This document shows, piece by piece, positions 3,969-18,382 of a DNA stretch of 29,737 nt. A model generated the notes under the pieces. That model searched no databases, was not told the origin of the DNA, and saw nothing but the letters and a program-made list of their open reading frames with translations. The DNA comes from Anaerolineae bacterium (lineage in GTDB: Bacteria; Chloroflexota; Anaerolineae; Aggregatilineales; Phototrophicaceae). The translations under genes were made by a program, and so were the position numbers. The DNA lies in assembly GCA_028284565.1 (NCBI GenBank), contig JANQRM010000033.1:1-29737 (forward strand), read 5' to 3'. Position 1 is the stretch's first letter, and every line of letters begins with the position of its first letter.

Positions 3969-4043
3969 TCGGGGTACTCGGATTCGAACCGAGGACCTCT
4001 TGCACCCCATGCAAGCACGCTAGCCGGACTGCGCCATACCCCG
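3969..4043 (-). tRNA. tRNA-Pro, anticodon GGG
   Basis: On the minus strand a full cloverleaf can be drawn: acceptor CGGGGTA with TACCCCG, D-arm GCGCAGTCCGGCTAGC, anticodon arm CTTGC-ATGGGGT-GCAAG with anticodon GGG, and T-arm with GGTTCGAATCC. The discriminator base is A (3969). No CCA is encoded. The gene stands alone, with a promoter-like TGATATACT upstream and a terminator just downstream. It decodes CCC and CCU. Confidence 0.95.
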
Positions 4044-4131: not shown

Positions 4132-4163
4132 CTTTGCATCCTATTTAGCGATTGGATTTTGGC

Positions 4164-5219
4164 ATGTCATCGGATTTCCCACGATTGACGACACTAGCCT
4201 CCTGTGCTGGTTGAGCATCTAAGCTGGGTCCTAGCGACCTGTCGCACGTGTTGCGACCTTTAAGTGATATATTTTCTACCCAAGAGTATCCTAATCTCTT
4301 GGTTGGTTTGGATTCCCCTGATGACTCGGCTGTTTATCAGTTAGATGAAAATCGTGCGATTATTTCAACAACAGATTTCTTCCCACCTGTTGTTGATGAT
4401 CCCTACCATTTTGGGGCAATTGCGGCGGCAAATGCGTTGAGTGATGTGTATGCGATGGGGGGGCGACCTTTCCTAGCGATTAACTTGGTTGCTTTTCCTG
4501 ACGGACTTGATTTAGATATTTTGACGGAAATCTTGCGCGGTGGGGCAGAGAAAGTCAAAGAAGCTGGTGCAATCATTGCAGGTGGGCATACAGTCACTGA
4601 TAAAGAACCGAAATATGGTTTGTCAGTTATTGGTGATGTGCATCCTAATAACGTGATCAAGAAAAGTGGCGCGCGAGTTGGTGATAAGCTCATTCTGACC
4701 AAGCCACTTGGTACTGGGGTGATTACAACAGCCCTTAAACGTGGAGATGCAGAAACCGATCATGTGGATAAAGCAGTTGCAACGATGAGTCTCCTCAACA
4801 AAACAGCTTCGGAACTTGCTCAAGAATTCCAAGTTCATGCAATGACAGACATTACAGGGTACAGTTTGCTGGGTCATGCTCATGAGATGGCGCATTTGGG
4901 ACAGGTCCGTTTTGAGATCACGTTTGCTCAGTTGCGGTGGCTTGAAGGTGCAATGGACTATGCCCGAGCGGATATTTTCCCCGGTGGGATGCATCGCAAT
5001 CGAGATTATTTCTTGAAGTGGGTGACGATTGACCATGCAATTGCTGAGCATCAAGAGTATCTGCTATATGATCCACAAACTTCAGGGGGATTGTTAATGT
5101 CTGTTGCTCCTGACCAGTGTGAAGATTTGCTCGAAAAACTGATTGCAAAGGGTGAGCAAGCCAGTGTCATCGGGACTGTTCTTGCTGGTAATGGAGAGAT
5201 TATTATCACTTCAACGTGA
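4164..5219 (+). CDS. selD: Selenophosphate synthetase, selenoprotein with in-frame UGA (Sec17)
   Basis: SelD makes selenophosphate from selenide and ATP, the Se donor for selenocysteine and selenouridine. The frame open from 4248 lacks the family's N-terminus. Reading back in frame through TGA 4212-4214 restores it: MSSDFPRLTTLASCAG-U-ASKLGPSDLSHVL. The TGA falls at residue 17 and the essential Lys at 20, the same positions as Cys17 and Lys20 in E. coli SelD, where many organisms carry Sec. Downstream family motifs are DSAVYQL, TTDFFPPVVDDP, AGGHTVTDKEP, TDITGYSLLGHA and YDPQTSGGLL. The length of 351 residues is normal. Hairpins suited to a bacterial SECIS follow the TGA. No other selenocysteine machinery genes (selA, selB, tRNA-Sec) lie in the window. 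The ribosome site is weak (GGATTTTGG). Confidence 0.92.
4212..4214 (+). other. selD: UGA codon read as selenocysteine in selD
   Basis: This in-frame TGA occupies the catalytic Cys/Sec position of SelD, with family-conserved sequence on both sides (LTTLASCAG before, ASKLGPSDL after). Conservation across the stop is the main evidence for recoding. Confidence 0.88.
4223..4257 (+). promoter_or_regulatory. Candidate bacterial SECIS hairpins
   Basis: Two hairpins follow the selD UGA. The proximal one pairs GCTGG (4223-4227) with CTAGC (4231-4235) around GTC, one G-U pair, recalling the GGUC loop recognised by SelB in E. coli fdhF. The distal one pairs GTCGCA (4241-4246) with TGCGAC (4252-4257) around CGTGT, six perfect pairs with a G in the loop. 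Either could recruit SelB; which one is used cannot be decided by eye. Confidence 0.55.
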
Positions 5220-5396: not shown

Positions 5397-8300
5397 ATGA
5401 AATCGCTGTTCAATTTCATTACAGTTGTATCCTTGCGCTTGCGACTAGTGACCTTAGCTTTGGTCTTGGTTGTGATTGCCTTGGGTGTTGTGTCTGCTTC
5501 AGAACTTAAGCAAGAACTCTTGCCTCCTATCGAATTTCCACAGACATTCATCTTCGCGCAAGTATCTGGCATGACAAGCGAAGAAGTCTTGACGGTGATG
5601 ACAGAGCGTGTTGAGGAGCAGATTAAAGATATACCGGGTGTAGTCAATGTCCAATCAACGACGACAAACGCGATTGGTGCGTTTGTGATTGTTTCTAACG
5701 AATTTGGAATCAATCAAGAGCGTTTCTTAGAAGACTTGCAAGTTGCTTTAGACGGAATCTGGCTTCCCCAACGTCGTATTGCGCCTGCTGATGGACAAGA
5801 TACAGGTACATTTGCTGTTCAATTATTGCAAGACTTATCGAGCCAACAATTGATCTATTGGGCAGAGCAAGATGGTAATTTCCTCTTCCAGCTCTCACCG
5901 GAAGTTTGGTCTGCATTATCGGATGATACCTTACAAGCTGTTCTGGCTTATTTGGCGAATCAAGCGCAAAGTGATTCTAGTGAAAAGAGTGCCTTGGAAC
6001 GATTGGTTGAGCAAGATGTCTTGCCACAATTACGTGGTGTTGAGGCTGTTGCTCGCCTGAGCATCAGTGGTGGACAAGCCTTACCGGGTGAAGAAGCGGC
6101 GTTTGAAGCTGTGGAGGTCGAAGAAATTTCGGATGCGGCTCGCAGTCAGTTGCTTCAACTGTCGCGAGATGTGTGGGAAGTGATTGCGTCCCGTCTTGAT
6201 TTGGGCGAACTGAATGAGTCTGCTGTTATAACTCTTCAAACAATGGAATTTATATTACCCGAAGATGTACCTGCACTTCCAGAATCATGGCAGACAGCGA
6301 ATTTCAAAGATGTGACGGACATTGAAGAACTTACGAGTTTGCAAGTGTCCTTAGCCGATATTCTAAATGACTTCTACAATGATGGGGTAATTGCAGGTGC
6401 TTTAGGACAAACGGATGATTTAACTCCAGACGTAGTAGCGCAATTACTGGAGATTGAACCCTCGCTTGTGAACTATTTTGGGGCAGAGCATTTAGTGGCG
6501 ATGTCACCGGACGTTTTTGCTGTGTTGCCAGACGAGTTTATTCTTGAGTTGGACGGCTTCACACGTGATGAATTGGCGGCGGCTTCTTTAGCCGTGAGTT
6601 TGTCGGGTAAAGAAGCATCTCCAGAGCCTGTTGACTTGCCCTCTGCATGGCAATTGCAAACTCCTCAAATCTTAAGTTTTAGCTTTGCTGATTTGCCGTT
6701 AGCGACTTACAGTATTTATAGTGTTGGTGATGGTGTGGTTACCTCTAGTGACTCATCTACTGAAGCGGTAAACGATATGCAAAACGCATTTGATGAGCAG
6801 GATGAGGCAGATGAACCTGACTCTGCTGAGATTCCAGAAGGTCCAGCACTTGCACCGATTTGGGGTATTTTAGGAGCGCAATTCGGCGGTGAGTTTAATA
6901 CTGTCGATGATTTGATCAATATTGAACTCCCTGCCGAAACTGCTGACCAATTTGGGGGCGGAAGTCTCTCAGCGGCAGATTTAATGGGCTTCTTTATCCT
7001 CTTGGCTGATCCATCTGCAATACCAGACGGTGTGGAATTACCTCCTGTTTCTATCAACCCTTCATTGATTTTGGGTGGCTTTAGCGCGGAGGATATCTCA
7101 TTTCTCATCGAATATGACTCGACTTTTTTGCCGAATCTGAATCCTCAAGTCTTTGAGTATTTCGCTGATGAGGTTTTGGCTTTGCCGGAGATTTCACCTC
7201 CATTGGGGAATACATGGTCTACATTATCTAATCGTCCACAGTTTGCATCTATGCCATTAGAAACTGCTGATGATTTATTGCAATTGGGTGATGGCTCAGC
7301 TTCGGAGATATTGAATCTCATTAATGAAACCGTGCCAGATCAATTTGCGGGCTATGAAGTGAGACTGTTTGATAGCTTGTCAGTTGGGACGGTGCGGTAT
7401 CTGGCATTGAATGATACGGATTTATATAGCAATTTATCTGGCGATGTTTTGTTGAAGATGTCCCCTGCTGTATTAGCTCAATTGTCAGAAGATGTTCTTG
7501 AAGAACTCGATAGCGAAATTGCAGACCCATTGCTGGCTATTGCGAATGGTGAATCTCCATCTGCAATTGAACAATTGGCAGAGTTATATTCCTCTGATGT
7601 GACTCCGGCTGACCCAACTGCGCCTGCATTAAACGATGAATGGCAGTTTATTGCTGGCTTCTTGGGTGTGGAATTGAATAATGTCTTCGACTTTTATCGA
7701 TTCCCTGATGCGTTAGGAACGCCTTCTCAGTTTATCAACGGCTTGTTTGATTCTCCTGCTGGGGCGAATTTTGCACCCGATCTATTAGGTAATTTAAGTT
7801 TGGAGGCCTTTCAGTATCTCTCTGATCGTGATACGAGTTTTGTGACTGATTTGCGTCCTGAGGCTGTTTCCTTATTGTCCGAGGAAGTTTTTGGTACATT
7901 GCCTTCATCGGTGCAAGATAGTGCAACATCGGGTGAGGTGTTCAAGCCGACTTCTGCTGTCACTCGCAATAACGGCGCACCCAGTCTCTTTGTGACTGTG
8001 TTTAAAGACCAAGATGCGAATACCGTAGAAACGTTCTACGATGTCGAAGCTGTCATCGAAGAAATCAGCACTAATAATGATGAGGTAGAGGTTCAAGTTG
8101 CTTTTGAACAGGCTAGCTTTATCGAAACCTCGATTGAAGGGGTTGTTCGTGAGGGAACGCTTGGCGCCGTCTTTGCAACGATTATCATTCTTGTCTTTCT
8201 CAGTGGGGGAGGTTGGTCAGTTCAAGCACGGCGAATTGTCGGGACTGTGATTACGGTATTGTTTGCTGTGTTGCTTGCTCTATTGATTGCATCTGGATTG

Positions 8301-10349
8301 GAAGTTTCTGGTGGAGATTGGTCGTTGGCTTTTGCTCAAGCAGATGTGGTTATACGCATACTGTTTATTATGGGAACTGTTTCTGGGTTGGCCATCCTCT
8401 TCTTCCCGAGTAATCTTCCCTATCCAGCTTGGCGCAGTACATTGGTTATTGCCGTTAGTATTCCCTTGTCCTTGTTTATGGCACTGGCTGGGATGCACTG
8501 GCTATCTCCTGCGATGCACGGGCTGTTGGAACCGGGGGCTGATTCATCTGGTTTGATCGCATTTTTACTCCGCTTATTCCCAGAAAACATCACTCTGAAT
8601 ATCATGACCTTGTCTGGTTTGACGGTGGCAATCGGACGTGTGGTAGATGACTCGATTGTGGTCTTGGAGAATATCTATCGCCAAATGCAAAGTGGCATGG
8701 ATAAGCGAGAAGCTATTCTATATGGTACTCGTGATGTCTCGGTGGCGATTTTCTCTGCGACAGGTATTGCAGTGATTGTCTTCTTGCCTCTTGGTTTGAC
8801 AGGTGGGTTAATCAGTGAGTTTTTCCTTCCCTTTGGTCTCGCTGTCACATATGCCTTGCTCGCATCGTTTATCGTGGCGATTAGTGTGGTTCCGGTTTTG
8901 GTTTACCTATTTGTAAGTATCGAAGATATACCAGATGAGCATGAAACCATTATGGAACGGATTTATGTTCCGATTCTACGATGGTCATTATCCTCACGAG
9001 GTACGCGTTTGTTTGTATTGAGTGTTGCTTTTTTCTCGTTTGTCGCTAGTGGCATCCTGCTTGGGACTCGTCCGGCGGCGTTCCTGCCAGCTTTTGGTGA
9101 ACCTCAGCTATCTGCAAGCATTAGCTTGCCACCGGGAACAGGGATGTTGGAGACGAATGCGTTGGTTGAGGAATTTGAAGTCGTTGTCGCTAGCTTAGTT
9201 GAGGATGGGACAATTCCCGCGGAATCATTGTCCAATGTGCAAGTGGTTATTGGCGGCGGCGGCCCAAATGATTTTGAAGCCTTGTTTGGCGGCGGTGGCA
9301 TCGTTTCTGAGAATGAGGCCGAAGTGAATGTCCTGATTCAATCTCAAGAAATCTTGGACGCGGTGACTCCTATATTGCGGGAAGAAGCATTCAGCATTTT
9401 TGGTGAGGAGTATGTGACTGTTTCGGCGGCAAGTTTGGGCAGTGGGGATTTCAACAGTGTTGAGCTGACTGTATCTGGCGTTGAGCAAGATGTTCTGATT
9501 GAGTTTGACTCGCGCATCATTGAAGCGATGAACAATATTGAGGGCATTACGAACGTTACCAGTAATCTGGAGCAGGTTGCGAGTGGTTCCGGTGATTCGG
9601 CTACCTACATTCGTATCAATGGTGTAACTGCCGCGACCTATCAGGGGGACTTGGAGACTCAAGACACAATCAATGTAACTACTCAAGCAATCGAGGCTAT
9701 TAATGGTATACCTGAATTGCCTGAAGGCATCGAAGTAAGCCAAGGCTTCACGAGTGAAATTCAATCTGAAGGCTTCATTGGTATCTTCATTGCGATGGGA
9801 ATCTCAATTGTGATGATGATTATCATTTTGATTGTGACGTTTAACTCGTTCATTTACTGGATTGCACTCATTCTAAGCATTATGGTGGCTCCAGTTGGGG
9901 CGGCGTTGGCTTTGACGCTTACAGATAGGGCTGTAAGTATCTCCGCAACGATTGGTTTGCTGATGCTCTTTGGTTTGGTCGTCACGAATGCGGTGGTTCT
10001 ACTTGACCGGGTTGGTTCTAATCGTTCAGAACGAGGTATGTCACTCTATGATGCCTTGATTGAAGCGGGTGGTCGTCGTGTACGTCCCATCTTAATGACA
10101 GCATTGGCAACGATTATTGCCTTGCTTCCGCTGGCTGTTGGATTGTCTGAAGGTGCAATTATCGCGGCGGAATTGGGTACGGTTGTAATTGGCGGTGTAT
10201 TTAGTAGCACCTTGCTGACGTTGATAGTGGTACCTGTCGCATATAGCATGCTTACGCCGTTACATGACTTCTTTGCTCGTTTATTTGGGCGTGGTGGTCG
10301 TTCTGCTCATACAGGTGAACAAGAGGAAGAAGGCAAAGAAAAGCGGTAG
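5397..10349 (+). CDS. Giant RND-superfamily transporter with repeat-containing extracytoplasmic insertion
   Basis: RND pumps use proton flow to export hydrophobic compounds. The 1650-residue protein keeps the family frame: TM1 (about 15-33), porter PN1 (about 38-125), a PN2-like segment QLRGVEAVARLSISGGQ (211-227), GAPSLFVTVFKDQDANTVE just before TM2, TM4 with GRVVDDSIVVLENIYR (1080-1095, the paired Asp of proton relay), the second porter half (about 1225-1450), and the last helices with GLVVTNAVVLLDRV (Thr where AcrB has Lys940). It differs from the usual ~1050 residues in two ways. Roughly 500 extra residues between about 140 and 855 contain about four units of 95-115 residues, each ending in a motif like LSPxVxxxLSxxVLxxL. 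About 80 extra residues with two added helices follow TM2 (about 945-1005). No membrane-fusion partner is adjacent. The substrate is unknown. Confidence 0.88.
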   Translation: MKSLFNFITVVSLRLRLVTLALVLVVIALGVVSASELKQELLPPIEFPQTFIFAQVSGMTSEEVLTVMTERVEEQIKDIPGVVNVQSTTTNAIGAFVIVSNEFGINQERFLEDLQVALDGIWLPQRRIAPADGQDTGTFAVQLLQDLSSQQLIYWAEQDGNFLFQLSPEVWSALSDDTLQAVLAYLANQAQSDSSEKSALERLVEQDVLPQLRGVEAVARLSISGGQALPGEEAAFEAVEVEEISDAARSQLLQLSRDVWEVIASRLDLGELNESAVITLQTMEFILPEDVPALPESWQTANFKDVTDIEELTSLQVSLADILNDFYNDGVIAGALGQTDDLTPDVVAQLLEIEPSLVNYFGAEHLVAMSPDVFAVLPDEFILELDGFTRDELAAASLAVSLSGKEASPEPVDLPSAWQLQTPQILSFSFADLPLATYSIYSVGDGVVTSSDSSTEAVNDMQNAFDEQDEADEPDSAEIPEGPALAPIWGILGAQFGGEFNTVDDLINIELPAETADQFGGGSLSAADLMGFFILLADPSAIPDGVELPPVSINPSLILGGFSAEDISFLIEYDSTFLPNLNPQVFEYFADEVLALPEISPPLGNTWSTLSNRPQFASMPLETADDLLQLGDGSASEILNLINETVPDQFAGYEVRLFDSLSVGTVRYLALNDTDLYSNLSGDVLLKMSPAVLAQLSEDVLEELDSEIADPLLAIANGESPSAIEQLAELYSSDVTPADPTAPALNDEWQFIAGFLGVELNNVFDFYRFPDALGTPSQFINGLFDSPAGANFAPDLLGNLSLEAFQYLSDRDTSFVTDLRPEAVSLLSEEVFGTLPSSVQDSATSGEVFKPTSAVTRNNGAPSLFVTVFKDQDANTVETFYDVEAVIEEISTNNDEVEVQVAFEQASFIETSIEGVVREGTLGAVFATIIILVFLSGGGWSVQARRIVGTVITVLFAVLLALLIASGLEVSGGDWSLAFAQADVVIRILFIMGTVSGLAILFFPSNLPYPAWRSTLVIAVSIPLSLFMALAGMHWLSPAMHGLLEPGADSSGLIAFLLRLFPENITLNIMTLSGLTVAIGRVVDDSIVVLENIYRQMQSGMDKREAILYGTRDVSVAIFSATGIAVIVFLPLGLTGGLISEFFLPFGLAVTYALLASFIVAISVVPVLVYLFVSIEDIPDEHETIMERIYVPILRWSLSSRGTRLFVLSVAFFSFVASGILLGTRPAAFLPAFGEPQLSASISLPPGTGMLETNALVEEFEVVVASLVEDGTIPAESLSNVQVVIGGGGPNDFEALFGGGGIVSENEAEVNVLIQSQEILDAVTPILREEAFSIFGEEYVTVSAASLGSGDFNSVELTVSGVEQDVLIEFDSRIIEAMNNIEGITNVTSNLEQVASGSGDSATYIRINGVTAATYQGDLETQDTINVTTQAIEAINGIPELPEGIEVSQGFTSEIQSEGFIGIFIAMGISIVMMIIILIVTFNSFIYWIALILSIMVAPVGAALALTLTDRAVSISATIGLLMLFGLVVTNAVVLLDRVGSNRSERGMSLYDALIEAGGRRVRPILMTALATIIALLPLAVGLSEGAIIAAELGTVVIGGVFSSTLLTLIVVPVAYSMLTPLHDFFARLFGRGGRSAHTGEQEEEGKEKR

Positions 10350-12921: not shown

Positions 12922-14256
12922 ATGACAGATATACAAAACTATTCTAGCAACATGAATAGACAAAAGACATCACGAATCCCACAATTCTATAAAAAGAGCC
13001 TCCCTGACAGAACAAAAATAATTCAAGAATGGTCTAACACCACAGACAACGAAATAAGAGCAATAACTGGTGATAAGCGACTATCAGCAAAAGAGGCAAG
13101 CCAGATGATTGAAAATGCCCTAGGCACTTTCAATCTACCTCTAGGTATTGCAACAAACTTCCTCATCAACTCAAAAGATTACCTTGTCCCAATGGCTATC
13201 GAAGAACCCTCTGTAGTCGCCGCAGTTAGCAATTCAGCAAAACTATTCAGACACGGAGGCGGATTCAACACAAAAAGCGACGATCCTATCATGATAGGTC
13301 AGATACAAATCCTAGACATACCAGATATAAACGAAGCACACAAAAACATCCAAGAAACAAAAGACAAGCTCTTAGATAAAATAAATTCTATTGGAGGCAG
13401 TATTGTCGAAAGAGGGGGAGGTGCAAGAGACATACAGATAAGACAACTTAAAGATGAACGCATCGGGGATATGTTAATCGTACACCTCCTATACGACTGT
13501 CGCGATGCAATGGGCGCAAACATTATCAATACTTCCGTAGAATACATTGCTCCTGATATTGAAGTTCTAACAGAGGGGCGGGTGAATCTACGAATACTTA
13601 GTAATTTAACTGACACGCGGAAAGCCTACGCAAAAGGCATGATACCCGCAGAATATCTTTCAAGAAAAGATTCAGAAGGAAAAGATGTTGCAAAATCTAT
13701 CGTCGAAGCAGGCATATTTGCAGAAATCGATCCTTATCGTGCCACTACGCACAACAAAGGAATCATGAATGGTATTGATGCTGTCGTAGTCGCCACAGGG
13801 AATGACTGGAGAGCAATTGAAGCTGGCGCACATGCCTATGCCGCGCGTAGTGGCACGTACTCCAGTCTGACTCGATGGTGGCAGGATGAAGAAGGCAACC
13901 TACATGGCTCAATTGAATTGCCCCTTGCAGTAGGTATCATTGGTGGCGCAACACTTGTACATCCTACTGCTCAAGCTGTCTTAAAAATCCTAGACGTACA
14001 ATCAGCTCAAGAGTTAGCTGAAGTCATCGCTTGTGTAGGACTTGCACAGAATTTTGGTGCCATTCGAGCGTTAGCCACAGAGGGGATTCAAAAAGGACAT
14101 ATGCGGATGCACGCACGACAGATTGCTATAGCGGCAGGCGCAGATGATGCACAAGTCTTGTCGATTGTTAAGAGGATGATTTCTGAAGGAAATATCCGGT
14201 TAGGACGTGCAAAAGAGCTTCTCGAACAGATTAATCACCAATCTGATAGCCTTTGA
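12922..14256 (+). CDS. Hydroxymethylglutaryl-CoA reductase, class II
   Basis: The enzyme interconverts HMG-CoA and mevalonate, the committed step of mevalonate-based isoprenoid synthesis. The 444-residue soluble protein matches class II (Pseudomonas mevalonii type) along its length: SRIPQFYKKS, MIENALGTFNLP, EEPSVVAAVS (catalytic Glu at about 94-95), RDAMGANIINT, RILSNLTD, the catalytic THNKGIMNGID (Lys279, Asp286), ATGNDWRAIEAGAHAYAARSG, and GHMRMHARQIA (His393/397). A DUF35-type OB-fold gene follows 86 bases later. Mevalonate kinase and isopentenyl phosphate kinase lie elsewhere in the window, giving a biosynthetic direction. The first ~750 bases are A-rich with many AGA and ATA codons, unlike both the rest of the gene and its neighbours. 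Confidence 0.95.
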   Translation: MTDIQNYSSNMNRQKTSRIPQFYKKSLPDRTKIIQEWSNTTDNEIRAITGDKRLSAKEASQMIENALGTFNLPLGIATNFLINSKDYLVPMAIEEPSVVAAVSNSAKLFRHGGGFNTKSDDPIMIGQIQILDIPDINEAHKNIQETKDKLLDKINSIGGSIVERGGGARDIQIRQLKDERIGDMLIVHLLYDCRDAMGANIINTSVEYIAPDIEVLTEGRVNLRILSNLTDTRKAYAKGMIPAEYLSRKDSEGKDVAKSIVEAGIFAEIDPYRATTHNKGIMNGIDAVVVATGNDWRAIEAGAHAYAARSGTYSSLTRWWQDEEGNLHGSIELPLAVGIIGGATLVHPTAQAVLKILDVQSAQELAEVIACVGLAQNFGAIRALATEGIQKGHMRMHARQIAIAAGADDAQVLSIVKRMISEGNIRLGRAKELLEQINHQSDSL

Positions 14257-14342
14257 TAGCTCTAAATAACTCTCATGAGAGCAAATGGTAGCCTTATTTC
14301 GATATATTTAAGCTACATTGATTAACTGAGGCTATTGAAGTC

Positions 14343-14606
14343 ATGAATGTTGCATCTCTAACGATCAAAGTAGATAATTATCAAGACATCAAACAAACTG
14401 GTATCATTTACAGCTTTGTCCCAAGTGGAGATATAAATGCCAGTAATACCACTGCTTTAATTCGTTTGGAAGATGGCAGAACAATAACCGGGCAAGTCAT
14501 TGACTCAAGAGGTTGTTATATTGGTGACCGCGTAGAGATGGTCAGCCGAAATTCTCTTTACGATTCTTTGCGGAAACCTGAAAAGTATGTGTTTCGTAAA
14601 GTCTAG
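14343..14606 (+). CDS. DUF35-like OB-fold protein lacking the zinc ribbon
   Basis: The 87-residue protein resembles the C-terminal OB-fold half of DUF35 proteins: TGIIYSFVPSGD, then TTALIRLEDGRTITGQVI, then YIGDRVEMVSR. DUF35 proteins bridge acetoacetyl-CoA thiolase and HMG-CoA synthase in archaea, channelling acetoacetyl-CoA into the mevalonate pathway, and bind acyl-CoA in other enzymes. The usual N-terminal rubredoxin-like zinc ribbon (Cys pairs) is absent; only one Cys is present. The position directly after HMG-CoA reductase suggests a related role, perhaps handling CoA esters, which is inference. A GAGG lies 11 bases before the ATG, a loose ribosome site. A strong palindromic terminator follows. 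Confidence 0.65.
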   Translation: MNVASLTIKVDNYQDIKQTGIIYSFVPSGDINASNTTALIRLEDGRTITGQVIDSRGCYIGDRVEMVSRNSLYDSLRKPEKYVFRKV

Positions 14607-15997: not shown

Positions 15998-17224
15998 ATG
16001 ACTGATAATATCAATGCAGAAATCATTGCGATTGGTACTGAAATTTTGCTAGGTGAAATTACTGATACCAATTCTGTTTTTCTTGCTCGAAAGCTTCGAG
16101 ATTTGGGTATCAATCTCTATTTCATGACAACGGTTGGCGATAATGAAGAGCGGATATCATCGGCAATTCATAGTGCGTTGGAACGCGCGCAACTTGTTAT
16201 CACTTGCGGCGGTTTGGGTCCAACTCTGGATGATATGACCCGCCAATCGATTGCAAATGCTACTGATCGTGGTTTGACATTTCATCAGTATTTATATGAT
16301 CAAATTGCAGAACGCTTTTCTACCTTTCGCTCTGAGATGACGGAGAATAACCGACAACAAGCCTTCTTACCCGATGATGCGATTATCGTTGAAAATCCGG
16401 TTGGAACTGCTCCAAGTTTCATGGTGGAACATGGAGACGGGGTTGTCATAAGTTTGCCGGGTGTTCCTCGTGAAATGAAATTTCTATTTACAAAAGAGGT
16501 GGTTCCTTACTTAAAGAAACGTTTCAATCTTGGAGTGATTAAATCTCGAATATTGAAAACAGCAGGTATTGGGGAAAGTTCGCTTGACGATTTGATTGGA
16601 AGAAAGTTACTCAATAATGCTAATCCATCGATTGGTCTATCAGCTCACCAAGGTGTGATTGATGTCCGAATTACTGCAAAAGCGGAGAATAGTAAGGAAG
16701 CCGAACAAGCCCTAGATGGAATAGAATACACATTAAGGCGCAAAATAGGGCAATATGTATTTGGTATCGATGATGCAATTTTGGAAGTTACACTAATTGA
16801 GGAATTGGTAAGTACTGGACAAACTATTGCTGTTTTGGAAGCTGGTTTAGAAGATGCCATCGTTTCCAAGTTGCTTCCATTCAATAATGGTGCAACTATT
16901 CTGGCAGATGTCCAACAGGTCAATCATCCTGATGATCTCAATTTGGGCGTTACTGAGCTTAAAGATAAAGCCGAACAAATTGCTAAGAAAATCTATCATC
17001 AGCATGATGTTGTTGCGAGTATCGCCATCTTGAGTTATCCCGATGTTGATGAAAATCCAGATAAGGAGGCTAGTACAGCGGTCTGTGTGTATACTTCTGA
17101 GCATCAACGGGTACGTATCTATGGCTTTGGGGGGAAATCGAATTTAGCAAGAGATTGGGTGAGCCGTTGGGCAATGTCGGTTTTATGGCAGATGTTAAGA
17201 GAGCAGAACAACTATGTGGACTAA
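15998..17224 (+). CDS. CinA family protein with degenerate C-terminal deamidase domain
   Basis: CinA proteins join an N-terminal COG1058 domain (ADP-ribose pyrophosphatase in characterised members) to a C-terminal PncC-type nicotinamide-nucleotide amidohydrolase, used in NAD recycling. The N-terminal half looks complete: AEIIAIGTEILLGEITDTNS (7-26), TCGGLGPTLDDMTR (69-82), NPVGTAPSF, SLPGVPREM, and the middle segment KTAGIGESSLDDLI. The C-terminal half (about 265-405) keeps the fold outline, but the active-site signature ESCTGG is replaced by EAGLED (281-286), removing the nucleophilic Ser, and the usual AYSNEAK stretch is gone. Deamidase activity is therefore unlikely. The length of 408 is normal. 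The stop overlaps the next gene by 11 bases. Confidence 0.88.
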   Translation: MTDNINAEIIAIGTEILLGEITDTNSVFLARKLRDLGINLYFMTTVGDNEERISSAIHSALERAQLVITCGGLGPTLDDMTRQSIANATDRGLTFHQYLYDQIAERFSTFRSEMTENNRQQAFLPDDAIIVENPVGTAPSFMVEHGDGVVISLPGVPREMKFLFTKEVVPYLKKRFNLGVIKSRILKTAGIGESSLDDLIGRKLLNNANPSIGLSAHQGVIDVRITAKAENSKEAEQALDGIEYTLRRKIGQYVFGIDDAILEVTLIEELVSTGQTIAVLEAGLEDAIVSKLLPFNNGATILADVQQVNHPDDLNLGVTELKDKAEQIAKKIYHQHDVVASIAILSYPDVDENPDKEASTAVCVYTSEHQRVRIYGFGGKSNLARDWVSRWAMSVLWQMLREQNNYVD

Positions 17225-17822
17225 TTTTGTCGATAAGATTGAGGAGACACAACAGAAGAATCGTTCGCAACTCGCATTATTGATTTCACCCAAACTGCAT
17301 CAGATGCCTCTACCTATTCAACGCTATGATGATCCATTCTTACCTTTTAGTAAGTCTGTGATCAATGCCTCACAAGATTTGGTCTGCACTTATCTATTCG
17401 ATTTTCCAGCATACTTGACACTGGGTGCGGCAGGCGCAGTGGCTTTAGAACGCTCTATCGCGTATGTACGGCATCGTGTACCGACAATTTTGCATGGAAA
17501 CTTCGCAAGTACCTCATATAGCGACATTGTTGGTGAAACGGGTTTTCATGTGGATGGTGTGACCGTCGCGTTTGACCATCTACTGTCACATTACCTAAAT
17601 AATCCACCTTTTGCAGGATTTATTGTTAAAGAGGGCAAAGTCAAGACAGGTGCATTATTGGCACAAGGAGGTCATTTGTGGACAGAGCGAGAAACCTTAT
17701 CTTATCATAGTGGCGGGGTGATGACGTACATTCGGGTGCTGGGCGATTCCGTGATATACGGCGACTCTGGGAACAATTTCGCCGATGATATTCATCAACA
17801 ACTTGAAAAATTGCGTACATGA
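17214..17822 (+). CDS. OMP-decarboxylase-like pseudoenzyme (PyrF type 2 fold)
   Basis: The 202-residue protein tracks type 2 orotidine-5'-phosphate decarboxylase: FVDKIEETQQKNRSQLALLISPKL at the start, INASQDLVCTYLFDFPAY (50-67), GAVALERSIAYVRHRVPTIL (74-93), then VDGVTVAF (113-120). At the active site, where the family has DAKRGDIG, it reads HGNFASTS (94-101), so the catalytic Asp, Lys and Asp are His, Asn and Ser. The length is also short (about 270 is usual) and the phosphate-binding C-terminal part is barely recognisable. Pyrimidine synthesis by this protein is not expected. It starts inside the CinA-like gene and overlaps the next gene by four bases (ATGA), so all three are probably translated together. 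Family assignment is by eye and moderately sure. Confidence 0.6.
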   Translation: MWTNFVDKIEETQQKNRSQLALLISPKLHQMPLPIQRYDDPFLPFSKSVINASQDLVCTYLFDFPAYLTLGAAGAVALERSIAYVRHRVPTILHGNFASTSYSDIVGETGFHVDGVTVAFDHLLSHYLNNPPFAGFIVKEGKVKTGALLAQGGHLWTERETLSYHSGGVMTYIRVLGDSVIYGDSGNNFADDIHQQLEKLRT

Positions 17823-18382
17823 TCCTCGAACTGCTGATAAATGCAGGAATCCTCCAATTTGGGAACTTTTATACCCGCAAGCAGTGGCAACCTTACATTT
17901 TTTACTTTGAATTGTTGCCTTCATACCCAAATATATTAAACGAGATTGCCAGCTTAATTTCCCAAGAGCTGAAACCTAATAGGTTCGATTTTCTTGCTTG
18001 CCCAGAAGAGAGTCTACCTCTTGGTATTTTGGTCAGCCAAGAGATTGACAAACCTCTCGTCTACTTTAAAGTTAATTCGCCCAGCATGGGATTCATCGGT
18101 GCATTTGATGTTGGACATCCTGCCATGTTGTTGAGTTACACAGAGTTTTCTAGCTCCATTCTGGATTCGATTACGCAGAGTGGGAGCAAAGTCGGGTTAG
18201 ATTTCCAGTCTGCCTATGCCGTTGTACAATCCATTAACTCCAATAGGAACAAAATATTTCAACAATGCCTGCTTAACTTTGGAGAAGCCATCGGTAAACT
18301 TTATAAAGATGATGTAATTCCTCAAGCATTGTTCAAGACACTTCAGCAGATTAATCATCATCCAAACTCAAAAGAGCCATAA
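17819..18382 (+). CDS. Orotate-phosphoribosyltransferase-like pseudoenzyme (PyrE fold)
   Basis: The 187-residue protein follows orotate phosphoribosyltransferase: [16 protein letters not shown] (5-20; family LxxxGaikFGeFtLksG), [14 protein letters not shown] (27-40), [29 protein letters not shown] (57-85; family FDrIaGvPyaglPiAtals). The PRPP-binding loop, expected as VLVVDDVITTGGS, is [13 protein letters not shown] (102-114), lacking both acidic residues and the Thr-Gly-Gly turn. Activity as a transferase is unlikely. With the preceding gene it looks like a split, catalytically dead version of the PyrF-PyrE fusion known in some bacteria. Its 3' end overlaps the convergent lepA by 32 bases. 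The open frame without frameshifts argues for a retained, non-catalytic role. Confidence 0.6.

Follow-up and report, generated by a model that had tools for sequence, protein, structure and literature searches.

In Pseudomonas aeruginosa, an inactive dihydroorotase chain is necessary for ATCase activity (PMC7053772, from the part of the report that is accessible), and this pseudo-dihydroorotase is the closest working analogy for the Anaerolineae locus described here. In both cases an inactive chain from the pyrimidine pathway has been kept, in P. aeruginosa as the subunit of an active enzyme; the Anaerolineae case differs in that the pair is optional, is derived from pyrF and pyrE, and has a CinA protein as its presumed partner. 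In the CinA of T. thermophilus, E12, D20, D45, D76, and E156, together with E187 of the GIGES motif in the KH domain, lie at the ADP-ribose site (PMC4246079, in the excerpt available), and ADP-ribose hydrolysis has been demonstrated for one fused and one stand-alone COG1058 protein (PMC3680494, likewise from the available portion). The first gene of our locus shares with the T. thermophilus protein, as described in that excerpt, the domain order and the six COG1058/KH residues, but its deamidase domain is decayed and two extra genes are coupled downstream. The order PyrF then PyrE is also that of PRK05500 and of Leishmania UMP synthase (3qw4), while here there are two split genes without catalytic motifs. 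The stand-alone pyrF-pyrE genes of Anaerolineae have the same gene order and include the nearest active relatives of the second gene, but have intact motifs and full length. Searches of the open-licence literature returned no paper on an orotidine decarboxylase pseudoenzyme or on an Anaerolineae pyrF with cinA, and nothing on HP1257 as an OPRT; one match for an OPRT pseudoenzyme concerned a trypanosome APRT. As far as open-licence papers go, the arrangement is undescribed.

The locus is from an Anaerolineae bacterium (GCA_028284565.1, contig JANQRM010000033.1, positions 1-29,737 of the forward strand); this whole stretch of 29,737 nucleotides is called the window. The three genes occupy 15998..18382, with features as follows.

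15998..17224, plus strand: gene 1, CinA-family protein of 408 amino acids, with a COG1058 (apparent ADP-ribose pyrophosphatase) domain, a KH domain, and a decayed NMN-deamidase domain
16019..16519, plus strand: COG1058 (MoCF_biosynth) domain, residues 8-174, Pfam PF00994, with GxExxxG, DTN, GD, GGLGPxxxD, and PGVPREM
16544..16765, plus strand: CinA KH domain, residues 183-256, Pfam match, with GIGES (E193)
16781..17212 (approximate limits), plus strand: C-terminal domain in the place of the NMN deamidase, with ESCTGG lost and R.YGFG...W...W conserved instead
17214..17224, plus strand: overlap of genes 1 and 2, 11 bases
17214..17822, plus strand: gene 2, pseudo-PyrF of 202 amino acids, OMP decarboxylase fold without the catalytic motif
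17391..17402, plus strand: residues 60-63 (YLFD) of gene 2, in the place of YKPN of active PyrF, with the lysine lost and F62 and D63 derived
17493..17504, plus strand: residues 94-97 (HGNF) of gene 2, in the place of the catalytic motif DxKxxD
17819..17822, plus strand: overlap of genes 2 and 3, 4 bases
17819..18382, plus strand: gene 3, pseudo-PyrE of 187 amino acids, orotate phosphoribosyltransferase fold without the PRPP loop
18098..18118, plus strand: residues 94-100 (GAFDVGH) of gene 3, the window form of the derived signature GAYDIGH

The families of genes 2 and 3 are abbreviated pf (pseudo-PyrF) and pe (pseudo-PyrE), and cinA, pf, and pe together are called the trio. An earlier note on this DNA had described three open frames joined by overlaps of 11 and 4 bases, and they are exactly so. 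The trio is flanked on each side by one minus-strand gene, which we take from sequence to be an ABC-transporter ATPase (abc) and lepA. Promoter and terminator matches at the locus are at chance level only. Elsewhere in the window, 4161-5219 on the plus strand holds a frame that we take to be SelD-like, in which an in-frame TGA (4212-4214) is read as Sec (...ASCAGUASKL...) and an ATG precedes the listed ORF (4248); just upstream on the opposite strand is a tRNA gene (3969-4043, Rfam RF00005, 58 bits). The plus-strand frame at 5397-10349 resembles a transporter, is 1650 residues long, and contains a long repetitive insert. At 12922-14606, also on the plus strand, the HMG-CoA reductase gene directly precedes a small frame that matches OB_ChsH2_C weakly. 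In three related loci (L149, L245, and L247), two frames in the HMG-CoA reductase neighbourhood presumably represent HMG-CoA synthase and thiolase; no such frame is listed between the reductase and the OB_ChsH2_C frame of the window.

Gene 1 had been described as dead, which is correct for its deamidase motif and incorrect for its first domain. In the alignment to the T. thermophilus protein, the residues E12, D20, D45, D76, E156, and E187 named in the available excerpt of PMC4246079 correspond to E15, D23, D48, D79, E159, and E193 of the window, and none of the six varies in the 27 CinA sequences compared (the window and 26 loci). The N-domain has both GxExxxG and GGLGPxxxD, the marks of COG1058 in the accessible part of the literature, and is filed under that family. 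Gene 1 is apparently a working ADP-ribose pyrophosphatase of NAD recycling, judged by its residues, in which the C-terminal deamidase domain alone has decayed. That domain gives no match to PF02464 (NMN deamidase, PncC) up to E 10, and ESCTGG is absent from all 27 aligned C-domains, from all cinA frames recognised in 20 fetched loci (19 frames, many from genomes that have neither pf nor pe), and from the outgroup CinA proteins L166-L169. A separate PF02464 match is present in 25 of the 27 genomes with gene 2, and we infer that the domain decayed as PncC took over its activity; PncC would not always have done so, since two outgroup genomes (G304 and G330) have a decayed C-domain and no PF02464 match anywhere.

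Gene 2 is predicted to have the OMP decarboxylase fold (pLDDT 94), while its score against TIGR02127 is 29 bits, below the curated cut-off of 110.6. In a column comparison of 31 pseudo-PyrF and 19 active PyrF rows, the lysines of DxKxxD and YKPN occur in none of the 31, the first aspartate of DxKxxD is kept in 16%, and the PGxGxQGG stretch and most of DxKxxD are gone. Only 5 of the 43 columns invariant in active PyrF are kept in at least 80% of the pseudo-PyrF rows. Other residues are both derived and conserved, namely L22, P26, Y38, D40, F62, and Y127, as well as D63 and H94 (84% of the 31 rows each).

Gene 3 is likewise predicted to have the PRT fold of OPRT (pLDDT 92). A search with its single sequence found only itself; when an alignment of 22 relatives served as the query, 87 proteins were matched, gene 3 among them. 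The best sequence match of its profile is PRK05500, and the best structure match is Leishmania UMP synthase (3qw4). Among 24 pseudo-PyrE rows, compared with 24 active PyrE rows, the PRPP loop (DDLxTxG) retains its threonine and its glycine in one row each (4%) and its first aspartate in 17%; PRKExKxYG and most of SGxxSP are also gone, so that the combination of PRPP loop and PRKExKxYG by which OPRT is recognised is missing from the family. A loose PRPP-loop pattern flagged L153 once, in a stretch without TxG. Kept in pseudo-PyrE are 12 of the 46 invariant columns of active PyrE, while Q13, Y36, V81, A95, Y96, D97, H100, A122, and V125 are derived and conserved (D97 in 92% and H100 in 96% of the rows). 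Two basal relatives of gene 3, L263 and L264, have half-decayed traces of the old PyrE motifs. Because the folds are shared and the catalytic motifs are not, genes 2 and 3 are not assigned to any functional family. As the earlier note had proposed, they are pseudoenzymes; they descend from PyrF and PyrE, and their folds are predicted to be intact. The alternative of unrelated folds is ruled out by the sequence and structure matches to the two parent enzymes.

The derived polar residues suggest one use for the old pockets. D63 and H94 of gene 2, and D97 and H100 of gene 3 (GAYDIGH loop), are nearly fixed and could form a new enzymatic or ligand-binding site, but H94 is replaced by D in several relatives (L012, L017, and L025) and each of the two genes is often lost; we consider a new site unlikely. 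A second use, raised in the earlier note, is as a nucleotide sensor that would take up NAD-, PRPP-, or UMP-like ligands but not turn them over. In its favour, nucleotides are bound by both parent folds, and hydrolysis of ADP-ribose yields ribose-5-phosphate, from which PRPP can be made (PMC3680494, available portion). The conservation pattern does not suggest binding of PRPP- or UMP-like ligands, because the lost residues include those that hold the phosphates of such ligands. Gene 3 lacks the PRPP loop of its parent, together with PRKExKxYG and most of SGxxSP; gene 2 lacks the PGxGxQGG stretch, the lysines, and most of DxKxxD. Regulators with the PRT fold, such as PurR, retain the PRPP loop, which also counts against a sensor, and we regard this reading as distinctly improbable.

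Each family holds together in the trees, which are quick trees with SH-aLRT as the sole support: the 31 pseudo-PyrF rows and the 30 pseudo-PyrE rows each form one clade with SH-aLRT 100. Partial sequences (L021 and L027) were dropped from the PyrF tree, a cut one (L019) from the gene 3 sets, and L007, L019, and L021 from the CinA tree. The nearest active relatives were placed for gene 2 alone, and by both search score and tree they are the stand-alone PyrF proteins of other Anaerolineae. These proteins (frames of about 270-310 residues) were matched by gene 2 at about 1e-24 to 1e-37, and fused PyrF-PyrE proteins mostly at 1e-12 to 1e-25. Active pyrE lies beside the stand-alone pyrF in nine fetched loci (L123, L126, L130, L131, L132, L135, L136, L137, and L140). 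The gene after pyrF in L143 and L145 is presumably pyrD. Profile searches of the 16-17 kb surrounding five stand-alone pyrF genes (L143-L147) found no cinA.

Separate active copies, for which a search had been proposed, are found in many of the 27 genomes with gene 2: in addition to the 25 with an NMN deamidase, a PyrF over the cut-off is present in 16 and a PyrE in 13, and the intact copies in trio genomes fall in other clades than pf and pe. PyrF is below the cut-off in 11 and PyrE missing in 14 of the 27, and these may be assembly gaps, as genome completeness is not reported. In G109 and G359, which carry pseudo-PyrF, a full PyrF of that type was not found, and either assembly gaps or another PyrF type may account for this. 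The retired genes may be duplicates or displaced originals; in G248 a pseudo-PyrE lies by cinA, and an active PyrF of the DAKFGDI type is encoded at another place. L155, L156, and L158 are additional PyrF-like proteins in which the full motif is missing; they lie outside the trio clade, on long branches of unsure exact place, so PyrF may have been retired more than once. Neither cinA nor pyrE was recognised as a neighbour of these three; a full PyrF is also present in the genomes of L156 (G274) and L158 (G211), and no other PyrF was seen in that of L155 (G292).

A scan of genome contigs seeded with gene 2 (two peptide patterns) gave 27 loci, in which trios are over-represented. A fairer sample is that of 35 genomes, comprising the 34 of 396 genomes of the class with a CinA at E ≤ 1e-98 and G288, added for its pf. 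The criterion for pf in this sample was a hit of E ≤ 1e-30 in a frame of roughly 177-250 residues; hits of E 8e-18 or weaker, which lay in frames of 266-442 residues, were taken as active PyrF, those of G248 and G345 after inspection. Gene 3 was searched in the 35 genomes and the fetched loci, and its limits are less well known than those of gene 2. In 26 of the 27 scan loci cinA is upstream of pf with no gene between; the remaining one (L027) begins too close. In the 35-genome sample pf adjoins cinA in 10 of 11 genomes, and of the 15 genomes with pe, 14 have it in the cinA cluster, while in G288 all three genes are present but dispersed. Where one of pf and pe is missing, the other is still by cinA, and the linkage is also found where abc and lepA are not neighbours (L020, L023, L026, L263, and L267). 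One cinA-pf locus with an abc gene beside it, L022, comes from a record titled Pleurocapsa minor (JAHHHY010000001.1, 1.0 Mb); the class search placed its genome (G022) among Anaerolineae, so the record is probably mistitled as cyanobacterial, or else its assembly is mixed.

Although pf and pe are mostly found by cinA, the trio is often incomplete. Both genes are present in 7 of the 35 genomes, pf alone in 4, pe alone in 8, and neither in 16 (Fisher p 0.14); for a comparison of the two genes on independent pairs, the CinA tree offers 5 such pairs. In 13 of 16 loci without both, cinA and lepA are separated by at most about 70 bases or overlap, the others being L253, L255, and L262. Coordinated loss of function in three coupled genes, as claimed earlier, is ruled out by the separate presence of pf and pe and by the decayed C-domain of CinA in outgroups and in sisters without the pair. 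An obligate three-protein complex, in the strict sense, is ruled out by the same presence table: CinA is kept without pf and pe in 16 of 35 genomes, so the pair is not essential to it.

Sporadic presence could also mean that genes 2 and 3 are slowly vanishing relics, kept by chance or weak selection. On the CinA tree, where loci from outside the 35-genome sample are included as well, pf requires at least 7 changes and pe at least 8; this is consistent with relics, as is the fast evolution of gene 3, the window copy being the fastest (end branch 2.94 in the tree). The substitution pattern argues otherwise. NG86 dN/dS was computed for 8 trio pairs, and saturation left it undefined in 4 of 8 comparisons of gene 2 and 1 of 6 of gene 3. 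The two least saturated pairs gave 0.11-0.12 for cinA and 0.24-0.28 for the two pseudoenzyme genes, with one-sided p values for pN < pS in genes 2 and 3 of 4e-13 to 4e-16. Other, more saturated pairs gave 0.17-0.31 where defined, three closely related copies of gene 3 gave 0.08, 0.09, and 0.11 at dS 0.46-0.58, and the gene 3 pair L246/L251 gave 0.23. Genes 2 and 3 are under purifying selection, and the range of 0.08-0.31 where computable rules out pseudogenes, in agreement with the earlier note. Intactness of the frames is partly built in because they were found as open frames; the independent check is the count of stops in the matches of the 35-genome sample, where 11 of 11 pf and 14 of 15 pe matches have no internal stop, the exception (G001) having a TAA at the end. 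With folds that are predicted to be well formed and derived residues fixed across each clade, relics are improbable.

Genes 2 and 3 probably have a new, non-catalytic job, since the motifs are lost while the folds and purifying selection are kept. The job we propose, with about an even chance of being right, is that of optional accessory subunits, as scaffold or modulator, of the CinA pyrophosphatase. Accessory subunits are suggested because pf and pe sit with a constant CinA singly or together, also without the abc and lepA neighbours. Other pyr genes would do the old pyrimidine job, as is partly borne out by the separate PyrF and PyrE copies; the overlapping genes would allow the three proteins to assemble during their synthesis; and the two added chains would modulate or scaffold the ADP-ribose pyrophosphatase of the CinA encoded upstream. 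The deamidase domain of CinA is decayed, and most of the genomes concerned have a stand-alone PncC; each subunit would be optional, with lineages keeping both, either, or neither while CinA remains. Counted against subunits are the 16 of 35 genomes without the pair, in which CinA shows no need of an inactive chain such as the pDHO of ATCase provides, the dispersed genes of G288, and the PyrF-less G109 and G359. The linkage to cinA may also be inertia of position, which would weigh on the same side. In a fuller version, which is tentative and rather doubtful, two enzymes of one pathway, encoded by adjacent genes, would have lost their old role and been remodelled as a modular kit that regulates or scaffolds an NAD-recycling pyrophosphatase; D63/H94 and GAYDIGH would be new signatures at the former active sites, and the modules would be kept or dropped singly.

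Two conserved families derived from pyrimidine-pathway enzymes and without their catalytic motifs are now documented, along with possible protein partners for a CinA. Living genomes provide a graded series, from active pyrF-pyrE through partly decayed forms (L155, L156, and L158; L263 and L264) and the rebuilt pair to one gene or none, and this makes it testable what keeps a protein under selection once its catalysis is gone.
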